Below, one piece after another: positions 57,310 through 60,729 of a stretch of DNA of 64,000 nt (positions within the stretch are counted from its first letter, which is position 1; each line of letters starts with the position of its first letter). Under the pieces are notes generated by a model. That model was not told the DNA's origin. It searched no databases and saw only the letters and a list, made by a program, of their open reading frames with translations. Both the position numbers and the translations under genes were made by a program. Location of the stretch: positions 1,643,486 through 1,707,485 of the forward strand of contig NC_017094.1 in assembly GCF_000284315.1 (NCBI RefSeq). Direction: 5' to 3'. The stretch is from Leptospirillum ferrooxidans C2-3 (GTDB lineage: Bacteria > Nitrospirota > Leptospirillia > Leptospirillales > Leptospirillaceae).

Positions 57310-57422
57310 CTCCATCCCGCTCCATGTTGAAATCTCCCAGTTCTTTCTTTAAACTGTGGGGGAATCGGGCAAGTGGTGCCCGGACATCGTTGACTTTATG
57401 GCCTTACACCAAAGGAGCCCAA

Positions 57423-57740
57423 ATGCTGATCAGAAAGATCTCTTCCCTGTTCGTCGCGTTTGCGTTTATGGGAGCAATCTCCCTGACCGCAGCGCCAGTT
57501 TCTTTTGCCGCAGATGCAACAGCACCCGCAGCTCCTGCCGCCAGTGCACCAGCAGCTCCCGCAGCTCCTGCCGCACATCATGCCAAGAAGCACATGAAAA
57601 AGCGACATGCACGTCATGGTTGCAACCATCACAGCAAGTATTATCGCCGTCATCATCGTTGCTATCCAAAGCATCACCATTATGCCAAACACCATCATCA
57701 CATGAGACATCACCACAAGAAGCATCACCACAACGGGTAA
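57423..57740 (+). CDS. Secreted histidine-rich peptide, possible MNIO precursor
   Basis: A 105-residue protein from the ATG at 57423, set by AAGGAG. It has a Sec signal peptide (cleavage near VSFA-AD, residue 29), an Ala/Pro repeat segment (31-51) and a basic C-terminus with 22 histidines, mostly in HH or HHH clusters. Two cysteines, C67 and C80, sit in HGCNHH and HHRCYPK. It is likely a periplasmic or secreted metal binder. The next gene encodes an MNIO/DUF692 enzyme, a family that oxidises cysteines in small metal-binding peptides such as bufferins, which also carry signal peptides. This makes it a candidate substrate, though a terminator separates them. Confidence 0.7.
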   Translation: MLIRKISSLFVAFAFMGAISLTAAPVSFAADATAPAAPAASAPAAPAAPAAHHAKKHMKKRHARHGCNHHSKYYRRHHRCYPKHHHYAKHHHHMRHHHKKHHHNG

Positions 57741-58029: not shown

Positions 58030-59445
58030 ATGCCCAAAACGGATCTCCCCAAACTTCCATTGAGCCATCCGTATAAAATCGGAATCTCTACAGACCTCTA
58101 TTTCCCCCCCATCGATGCCCTCTACCACTCACTCACCGGCGTCGGTGAGACTCATCCATCAGAAAATCTGCCTGACTATATAGAGATTTTTCGCGGCCGA
58201 ACGGTTGACATGAAAAAAACCCGGGAAGAAACGATTCCCAAAAGGATTCCCCTCACCTATCACGGAGATGCCCTTTGGTACACCCAGACGAATTTCAGGG
58301 AACAACCTGCAACAAGACAGGAAATCATACGGGCGAATGCCCATATGGACGCACTCGAATCCGAATGGATGATTCACGAGTGTGCACATAAATCGTTTGG
58401 GGGAAGAACCTTTGGAACATACCTCCCGCCACTTTTCTCAAGAGAGTCGGCCCACCAGATCAGGGAAAACACCTTGTGGCTCATGGAGCAAATGGAAGGA
58501 CGACAGTTGATTGTCGAAATTCCACCCTTTCCGTTTTTTCTGGCGGGATCCATGCATCCTGGAGAATTTTTCCATTCGATCCTCAAGGAAACATCTATTG
58601 GACTGGGACTCGATATAGGTCACTTGATCACAATGCTCGAAGCTCTCGGAATCAAACCCCAACCCGAGGCCATCACCTCATGGATCAATCATTACCTCCC
58701 CATCGAACATGTCATGGAAATCCATATGGGAGGGCTCTCCTTATTTAAAAATTCGGAAATAACGCTTCACCAGGATGACCACACTGCTCCCATTCCCCAA
58801 CTATTATGGGAATCCCTCGAGGCTGTCTGCCGTTATTGCCCAATGAAGAATCTCAAGGGGCTGGCGATTGAAGTCGACAATAAAGAGATTGCAACCATTC
58901 TCCCGGAATTCCAGAAGTTTTATCGACTGATACAAGATTCAGCCATTCCGCTTGAATCCCTGTCACTTTCAAACAGGGAACGCCAAGCCATTACGCCTTT
59001 GAACCTTTACTCTTTGGATCCTGATGCCCTGGAATTGGAGTATCAAGATTTGTCCGCATATCTTTCCAGGCAAACATCAAACACCTCCCAATTCATTCAA
59101 GGCTTCCCCAATATTTACAGAGATTCCATCTACCCTTATGAAATATGGTCTTTTGGTGGAGAAATCGAAGCCATCTTTCCTGACACAATGAACGTCATAC
59201 GCTTTTTTCTAAAAGACCCCCAACAATCTTTTGTCGAATACTTTCATCAGGATCTTCTTTCGGAAATATTTCCCTTTGATTTTCTGGTGGTCAAGGTCCT
59301 GAAGTTCCAGGAATGGATTGGCAAACTCGCTTCAGAGGGAATATTCCCTGTCGACGTCCAAGACATTGCAATCCAGACATCCCGTCGGGAAGGAAGAAGA
59401 GCTCTGGATGACCAGGCATTGATTAATGGGGATGAGCTGGCGTGA
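58030..59445 (+). CDS. MNIO (DUF692) enzyme with C-terminal partner-like domain
   Basis: The first 300 residues match the MNIO (DUF692) TIM barrel, whose members bind two or three iron atoms and oxidise cysteine in peptides (MbnB, TglH, bufferin enzymes). Candidate ligands are H78 (LTYHGD), H116 and H120 (MIHECAH), E163, D195 and H198 (LGLDIGHL), E230 and H232 (MEIHMGG), D250 and H251 (QDDHT) and E281 (IEVDN). MNIO proteins are usually about 280-300 residues; here about 165 more follow. That tail (IYRDSIYPYEIW, IFPDTMNVIRFFL) resembles the DUF2063-type partner, normally a separate protein that binds the substrate peptide. AAGGA precedes the start. The nearest small gene is the histidine-rich peptide upstream. 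Confidence 0.8.
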   Translation: MPKTDLPKLPLSHPYKIGISTDLYFPPIDALYHSLTGVGETHPSENLPDYIEIFRGRTVDMKKTREETIPKRIPLTYHGDALWYTQTNFREQPATRQEIIRANAHMDALESEWMIHECAHKSFGGRTFGTYLPPLFSRESAHQIRENTLWLMEQMEGRQLIVEIPPFPFFLAGSMHPGEFFHSILKETSIGLGLDIGHLITMLEALGIKPQPEAITSWINHYLPIEHVMEIHMGGLSLFKNSEITLHQDDHTAPIPQLLWESLEAVCRYCPMKNLKGLAIEVDNKEIATILPEFQKFYRLIQDSAIPLESLSLSNRERQAITPLNLYSLDPDALELEYQDLSAYLSRQTSNTSQFIQGFPNIYRDSIYPYEIWSFGGEIEAIFPDTMNVIRFFLKDPQQSFVEYFHQDLLSEIFPFDFLVVKVLKFQEWIGKLASEGIFPVDVQDIAIQTSRREGRRALDDQALINGDELA

Positions 59446-59556: not shown

Positions 59557-59574
59557 TATCGATTACAATCGATA
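59557..59574. promoter_or_regulatory. Palindromic operator-like site upstream of the CheW-CheZ gene
   Basis: TATCGATT and AATCGATA form a perfect eight-base inverted repeat with a two-base spacer, 91 bases before the start codon in an otherwise empty AT-rich interval. This is the size expected for a dimeric repressor or activator site. The regulator is unknown. Confidence 0.5.
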
Positions 59575-59664
59575 AAAAGATTCACCAATGTACCAAGCTG
59601 TTGTGAAGTCCTAAACACCCGGAAGCCATACGCCGGGGCGACCCTTCCGAAGAAAGAGGCTATC

Positions 59665-60729
59665 TTGCAGCTATTTACCTTTCCATTAACAAAGGACATT
59701 CTTGTTGGTGTCAGACTTGACGATATCCTTAAAATTCTCAAAGGGGAACAGCTGACTTTTGAATCACCGGGAGGTCTTCAAACCGGAACCATTCATGAAA
59801 ATGGACACCAGACTCCAGTTTTTGATTTCAAACGAGCTTTCGAAAAAGAGGACAGCCAATCGCTTCCCGCCAGACTCTTAGTCATCGCTTTTTCAAATGG
59901 CGCTCGCTTTGGCATCGCCACGACCAAAATCGGAAAAGTGATCAGGGAAAAGACTCCCAACGAACGAAAAACACTGGAAAAATTGGGTCTCCCATTCTTA
60001 AGCTATTCTGACACCATTGACTCCATACCTGTTTACGTTTTTGATGTCCATTCCTTTGAACAGCATATGGGACTTCCAGTGTTATCCTCATTCGTACAAT
60101 CAGAGAAAGAAAAAACTCAAATGACAAACGATGAATCTCGGGGTCTGCCCAAACAAGATGATGCCAGTGCCGATTTATTGAATCAGGTTGGAAAGACTGC
60201 AAGAGAAATCCAGAAGATCCTCTCCATGTCAGACTCGATGATGGATACGATGAAAATGATGGAGACTCATCTTCCCCAAACATCCACAGGGCTTGAGGCC
60301 GTATCCAAAATGACGGAAGAGGCAGCACACAAGCTCCTTGAGGGGTTCGAAAAATCACTGGAGACCAACAGGGAGCTTCGAGAAGCTGTACAAAGAATGA
60401 AAGAAAGCCCCAAGACACTTCAGGCAGAGCTGCAATCCGTTGAAACACTCCTTTCCGAAGAAGAAGAACGAATCCTTCATGGATTTGAAGCGATGGTCTT
60501 TCAGGATCTGGTTGGACAAAATATCCGGAAAATGACCGGGACATTAAATGACCTCCAAAACAAACTCCTTACGATCCTTGTCGAACTTTCTCCACAATCC
60601 AAACATGAAGCACCTGAAGATAAAGGATCCTCTGCTCCGATAGAAGCTCTTGATCTCAAGGGAACGGGTCATCCGACCGATGTCAATCAGACAGATGTTG
60701 ATAAACTGCTTTCCGAATTTGGGTTTTAG
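59665..60729 (+). CDS. CheW-CheZ fusion protein
   Basis: The N-terminal 140 residues resemble CheW (GTIHENGHQTPVFDFKRAF; LLVIAFSNGARFGIATTKI), the adaptor linking receptors to CheA. The C-terminal part resembles CheZ, the CheY-P phosphatase: a long helical region with the active-site segment FQDLVGQ, where D281 and Q285 match E. coli D143 and Q147, and a C-terminal VDKLLSEFGF that matches the CheY-binding tail. The 354-residue protein thus joins an array adaptor to a phosphatase. The start is TTG with AAAGAGG six bases upstream. No other che genes are adjacent; a soluble receptor lies at 34.8 kb. Confidence 0.75.
   Translation: MQLFTFPLTKDILVGVRLDDILKILKGEQLTFESPGGLQTGTIHENGHQTPVFDFKRAFEKEDSQSLPARLLVIAFSNGARFGIATTKIGKVIREKTPNERKTLEKLGLPFLSYSDTIDSIPVYVFDVHSFEQHMGLPVLSSFVQSEKEKTQMTNDESRGLPKQDDASADLLNQVGKTAREIQKILSMSDSMMDTMKMMETHLPQTSTGLEAVSKMTEEAAHKLLEGFEKSLETNRELREAVQRMKESPKTLQAELQSVETLLSEEEERILHGFEAMVFQDLVGQNIRKMTGTLNDLQNKLLTILVELSPQSKHEAPEDKGSSAPIEALDLKGTGHPTDVNQTDVDKLLSEFGF

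Follow-up and report, generated by a model that had tools for sequence, protein, structure and literature searches.

A CheZ-like domain fused to a divergent CheW domain in Leptospirillum ferrooxidans, and related CheW-CheZ fusions in its phylum

A gene at positions 59665-60729 on the forward strand of the window, the whole 64,000-nucleotide stretch of the Leptospirillum ferrooxidans C2-3 genome analyzed here, joins a CheW-derived domain to a CheZ domain in a single frame of 354 codons plus a stop, beginning with TTG. The preferred interpretation of this cheW-cheZ fusion gene, to which a probability of about 0.6 is assigned, is that its product is a CheZ-family phosphatase that acts on CheY-P and is borne by a CheW-derived domain, which docks at the array, probably without coupling. 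The Leptospirillum protein is the most derived form of the CheW-CheZ fusions in its phylum, and the occurrence of several such fusions in related bacteria suggests that the means of keeping the off-switch at the sensor cluster is part of the protein itself.

Gene structure and the CheZ domain

The N-terminal domain, supported by Pfam, hhalign, a structural model and dN/dS values, covers residues 1-135 (59665-60069, + strand, as for all coding features given below) and is followed by a variable linker of residues 136-165 (60070-60159), which is poorly conserved in the family alignment A1 and has within-genus dN/dS values of 0.55 and 0.45. A Shine-Dalgarno-like AGAAAGAGG (AAGAAAGAGG; 59651-59659, +) lies ahead of the TTG and is conserved in three same-genus sequences, in which the start region as a whole is near-identical. 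As this element and the start region are conserved, and orthologues start at the same position with TTG, GTG or ATG, the TTG start is supported. A perfect palindrome, TATCGATT-AC-AATCGATA, occupies 59557-59574, and palindrome-like matches with up to three mismatches appeared at least once in 18 of 100 shuffles of the window. Because it is present as a single copy in the genome and is absent from two same-genus orthologous upstream regions, its candidacy as a regulatory site was rejected. The sequence-only reading had placed the gene alone behind a palindromic site; the fusion gene does stand alone and the palindrome exists, but a regulatory role for the latter is unsupported.

Judged by Pfam score and residue tests, the C-terminal half is an intact CheZ. 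Residues 170-354 (60172-60726) match the Pfam CheZ family (PF04344) with an E value of 1.9e-18 and 67.6 bits, above the cut-off of 30.7; the NCBIfam CheZ model PRK11166 gives an E value of 4.7e-13, under its own cut-off, and the best PDB sequence match is the solved E. coli CheZ 1kmi (1kmi_Z, E 2.8e-4). D281 (codon 60505-60507) and the catalytic glutamine Q285 (60517-60519) align with D143 and Q147 of E. coli CheZ, and both are invariant in A1 and in all residue-comparison rows. The putative C-terminal CheY-binding peptide, QTDVDKLLSEFGF (residues 342-354; 60688-60726), lines up with the C-terminus of E. coli CheZ, and the VDKLLSEFGF tail, recognized by sequence match, is likewise invariant in A1. 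Thus, the Pfam score and the alignment with E. coli CheZ, including that around the DxxxQ residues, bear out the earlier proposal of a CheZ-like phosphatase with D281, Q285 and a CheY-binding tail. A protein search found only one CheZ protein in the window genome, the two PF04344 stretches counted there being taken as two pieces of the fusion protein.

In E. coli CheZ, an aromatic pair in the hairpin binds short CheA, according to PMC7750401, which prints the pair as Phe-97 and Trp-98; the numbering W97/F98 used here was read from the E. coli CheZ sequence. Neither F nor W is found in the hairpin of any of the nine Leptospirillaceae CheZ rows (0/9), and the E. coli route via short CheA is therefore unlikely for this family. 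The organism's own cheA contains internal ATG codons, none of which has a convincing ribosome site upstream.

The CheW-derived domain and selection on both halves

The N-terminal half is a divergent CheW domain, on the joint evidence of an orthologue's Pfam score, an all-Pfam scan, hhalign comparison with controls, a template-free structural model and dN/dS values. The window protein itself falls under the Pfam CheW cut-off of 23.5 bits, both as a whole (E 0.058, 13.5 bits) and for residues 1-140 alone (E 0.01, 15.9 bits), and the orthologue L006 passes it over residues 2-132 (E 7.3e-7, 29.3 bits). A scan of 18 Leptospirillaceae N-domains against the whole of Pfam matched no family but CheW, in 6 of the 18 (best E 9.9e-8); the 12 without a match are taken as the 12 members of genus g5, because the six members from genera g1-g4 match or nearly match CheW elsewhere. 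In the g5 N-domains, some 20 residues in the region of the NLRG motif are missing. Alignment by hhalign of the 18 N-domains with 11 CheW domains scored 35.7 over 132 columns, compared with 17.5 for the best of 40 column-shuffled controls and 12.0 for the reversed control. Searched against PDB sequences, the N-domain profile A4 yielded no CheW match and one chance match (E 0.82), and the Leptospirillaceae rows were not picked up by a local CheW HMM made from A5.

A template-free AlphaFold2 model of residues 1-138, built from 6 sequences, reached a pLDDT of 60.8 and a pTM of 0.59; a full-length structure model (pLDDT 46) was set aside. The first 15 Foldseek matches of the N-domain model in the PDB are CheW or CheA-P5, the best at E 1.3e-3 and none under 0.001, and in a VIA comparison the first 11 rows are CheW or CheA-P5 with Z values of 3.5 to 5.6, unrelated rows reaching 2.9 at most. 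These values are modest, coming from a model of low-to-middling confidence, and they are useful mainly through the uniformity of the match list. The joining of an N-terminal CheW-like domain to CheZ, as originally proposed, is upheld by the L006 score, the hhalign score relative to its controls and the matches of the model; a CheW fold is suggested by the match list of the predicted structure, a hint tempered by the pLDDT and the best E value.

The residues that characterize CheW have been lost from this domain. In PMC3828127, R62 and E38 of E. coli CheW are described as a conserved salt bridge; R62A CheW keeps receptor and CheA binding with chemotaxis impaired or not supported, and changes at E38 weaken receptor binding. 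By profile alignment, the E38 and R62 positions fall on K23 and N46 of the window protein. Among the 18 family members, the E38 position is occupied by K in 10, R in 7 and N in 1, and the R62 position by N in 1, V in 2, G in 2, M in 1 and a gap in 12, never by R, so that neither residue is kept in any Leptospirillaceae N-domain (0/18). Both are kept in all of the other rows compared, namely 23/23 other fused CheW, 16/16 stand-alone CheW and 4/4 CheV. The replacement of E38 by K or R in 17 of the 18 would be expected to harm receptor binding. Given these losses, the case for array placement through the contacts known from CheW is stronger in the relatives than in the Leptospirillum protein.

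The N-domain has acquired invariant residues of its own across the family (M1, Q2, G15, R17, I24, G90 and R94); its identity outside the genus is approximately 23-31%. Both halves are under purifying selection: within the genus, the dN/dS values are 0.119 and 0.099 for the N-domain and 0.042 and 0.082 for the CheZ domain. For the window protein versus L005, synonymous sites have reached saturation in both domains, and the ratio is omitted. Constraint on the N-domain together with its new invariant residues points, at least within the genus, to an altered CheW and not a decaying one.

Genomic setting, distribution and origin of the fusions

The window genome (2.56 Mb, one contig) contains a flagellar/che locus (L071) comprising fliN, O, P, R, flhB, A, F, G, fliA, cheY, cheA, mcp, cheW, motA and motB, the gene names being the author's reading of the translations. 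In this locus, cheA directly follows cheY with no CheZ gene between them, and the fusion gene lies outside it. The chemoreceptor beside cheA (L071:11773-13464) carries a CxxCH motif (CLLCHG), which suggests a haem-binding sensor. A CheV gene is located elsewhere in the genome (L072), and there are 11 MCP matches; CheX and CheC were not found in the genome, the control searches for each having matched in 4 of 14 genomes. The sole CheB methylesterase domain found lies at G000:C1:1002299-1002826, within an open frame of 1722 aa.

The upstream neighbor of the fusion gene in the window (58030-59445, +) matches PF05114, the MbnB/TglH/ChrH RiPP-modification family, at E 2.4e-12, and its homologues also precede the fusion gene in a number of related genera. 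Farther upstream, 57324-57740 (+) encodes a 138-aa protein whose C-terminal half is very histidine-rich. In genus g5, simple ORF-and-BLAST labelling identifies the gene immediately before the fusion as an MCP gene in 7 of 12 loci; the chemoreceptor at L015:236-1336 is one such neighbor and carries MCPsignal and CZB (zinc-binding) domains. The window, unlike L015, has no MCP gene in this position. Downstream of the fusion gene in L006 is a gene for a 1047-aa GAF-PAS-GGDEF-EAL protein (L006:9198-12341), and a gene of similar size (~1040 aa) is found downstream of the fusion in L007, L008 and L009.

The homologue search proposed in the sequence-only reading found the fusion protein in 20 of 21 family genomes, the one lacking it being 70% complete, and in the matches of these 20 the joined frame is open and without stops; all 17 orthologues inspected at their start have the N-domain. 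Seven g5 genomes have a second, CheZ-only match. In the two of them examined, this is an additional, unfused CheZ that does not belong to a che locus (L109:7966-8601 and L111:6860-7492) and is flanked by what are presumably ABC-transporter-like and glycosyltransferase-like genes, and the protein ends in EYGV, not EFGF; five rows without the strict motif were dropped from the row set behind this comparison of CheZ ends.

In the phylum at large, a CheZ match is present in 233 of 395 sampled genomes, and a CheW-CheZ fusion is covered end to end by A2, a profile of 17 fusions, in at least 88 of the 395, spread over 15 family codes; another three seem to be truncated by the end of a contig. Both domains score over their Pfam cut-offs in the six fusions tested (L103, L104, L148, L152, L154 and L116). 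The usual setting of the fusion is cheR, cheY-like, cheY, cheW-cheZ, cheA, cheB and cheW, or close variants thereof, and a gene for a HEAT-repeat protein adjoins cheR in many che operons of the phylum (L148:10234-12213, PF13646 match). Other families have a free CheZ of approximately 200-240 aa adjoining cheY, in several cases between cheY and cheA. Within family f2, G038 and G021 carry the fusion, and G046 has a free CheZ in the same slot. The f9 fusions (L148:7448-8608 and L152:6288-7418) contain a HAMP-like stretch between CheW and CheZ, with matches to PF18947 (E 0.0015) and PF00672 (E 0.011-0.031) that are all under cut-off; this may hint at kinship between HAMP and the CheZ entry helix. 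In a plasmid collection, which provided the view beyond the phylum, none of the 290 records with a match covers 80% of a canonical fusion.

Literature searches, with subscription papers and domain-architecture databases mostly outside their scope, found no description of a CheW-CheZ fusion, and the architecture may be listed in such sources. The portions available of PMC10542144, PMC4742279, PMC9321776, PMC2577667, PMC5088516 and PMC9239204 make no mention of one.

The origin of the fusions was approached through trees of both domains, each of which holds long branches. The CheW-domain tree comprises 43 rows chosen by the author from matches to the local CheW HMM, excluding duplicates, CheA P5 and a single partial CheW, and with the Leptospirillaceae N-domains omitted as too divergent. 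In this tree, the canonical, f9 and f2 fused domains form separate well-supported groups on a weak backbone, and the canonical group holds one stand-alone CheW inside it; a topology that unites all fused domains is rejected (AU p 0.0018), as is one that unites canonical with f9 (p 0.00058). In the CheZ tree (42 rows; the free CheZ L156 and L165, without the motif, and the g5 free CheZ L110 left out), the Leptospirillaceae clade groups with the g5 free CheZ and weakly with free CheZ of what is presumably the Nitrospira type. A single clade of all fused CheZ is rejected here as well (AU p 3e-5), and placement of the Leptospirillaceae with any one fused group is not (canonical 0.116, f9 0.095, f2 0.051). 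A single origin of all fusions is thus disfavored by both trees, and the rejections favor more than one fusion event. Part of the pattern could stem from the splitting of an ancestral fusion or from exchange of its CheW part, since G046 of family f2 has a free CheZ where G038 and G021 have a fused one.

Proposed mechanism and comparison with known systems

In the proposed mechanism, the fusion protein would serve as the cell's CheY-P phosphatase, its N-domain would hold the phosphatase at an array partner, most likely the receptor tip or CheA P5, and in the Leptospirillaceae this domain would no longer couple receptor to kinase as a true CheW does. With CheZ held on the N-domain near an array partner, CheY-P would be destroyed near its site of production. 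In the other families, a fusion with a complete CheW would enter the array as an ordinary CheW unit carrying a phosphatase. Docking without coupling is plausible because R62A CheW, in the data cited above from PMC3828127, binds both partners yet fails in chemotaxis. The suggestion that CheY-P removal is placed at the array by another route than that of E. coli therefore has a mixed standing: it fits the phylum-wide fusion pattern and the missing hairpin pair in nine of nine rows, but the loss of E38 and R62 in all 18 Leptospirillaceae N-domains counts against it here. The wider proposition, that CheZ has been joined to CheW repeatedly within the phylum, that signal termination is thereby built into the array and that the Leptospirillaceae CheW is a docking, non-transmitting tether, is advanced tentatively, as somewhat less than an even bet.

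A less probable alternative holds that the N-domain is a re-purposed CheW remnant that binds outside the array, for instance to the motor, to a marker of the cell pole or to a c-di-GMP protein, and places CheZ elsewhere. Such a role would accommodate the loss of E38 and R62, the family-specific invariants present instead, the disappearance of CheZ from its usual slot between cheY and cheA and the GAF-PAS-GGDEF-EAL gene directly downstream in L006, with its similar-sized counterparts in L007-L009; the chemoreceptor gene that neighbors the fusion in 7 of 12 g5 loci and the array-contact residues kept by CheW relatives in the phylum argue for the array. The progressive erosion of the domain in g5 and its poor conservation across genera could also be read as signs of an appendage for stability or dimerisation only, left over from an ancestor bound to the array and playing no part in placement. 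However, within-genus dN/dS values of approximately 0.1, residues invariant across 18 members and the retention of the domain in every orthologue whose start was read make this improbable. As for a chance ORF or an annotation artefact joining two unrelated genes, which the TTG start and the weak CheW score might bring to mind, the joined frame is open in 20 of 21 family genomes with the same start position, and this conservation rules the idea out for practical purposes.

If the wider proposition of repeated CheW-CheZ joining holds, signal termination would be an integral part of the receptor array and not something that short CheA has to bring in. PMC7750401 describes CheZ as held at arrays by short CheA in E. 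coli and by ChePep in epsilon-proteobacteria, and in other groups as having no CheA-binding part, the holding factor not being known. A covalent CheW-CheZ fusion would be a simple and directly testable answer to how CheZ is held, and it offers a clean experimental test of whether it makes a difference that the phosphatase sits at the array. The Leptospirillaceae form raises the further question of whether CheW docking is separable from CheW signaling, as the R62A protein of PMC3828127 hints.

Compared with known systems, the C-terminal half shares with CheZ (E. coli, 1kmi, PF04344) the catalytic Asp and Gln, the FQDL core and the C-terminal CheY-binding peptide. E. coli CheZ is a free protein recruited by short CheA via the W97/F98 hairpin, whereas F and W are both absent from this hairpin in the Leptospirillaceae rows. 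With CheW (E. coli 2ho9; 2ch4; PF01584), the N-terminal half aligns over the full length by profile and may share the fold, as its model predicts, and it differs in lacking E38 and R62 and in being joined to CheZ. CheV is a CheW fused to a receiver domain (REC), and thus resembles the fusion as a CheW domain carrying another chemotaxis domain; the window genome has one CheV. However, CheV carries REC and keeps E38 and R62 (all four rows), and the fusion carries a phosphatase, no Pfam match to REC being found in the window protein, which has CheZ instead. The other CheW-CheZ fusions of the phylum have the same domain order, CheW then CheZ in one frame, with a longer linker (canonical) or a weak HAMP-like stretch (f9) in between; they keep E38 and R62 and lie mostly within a che operon, whereas the window gene stands alone.
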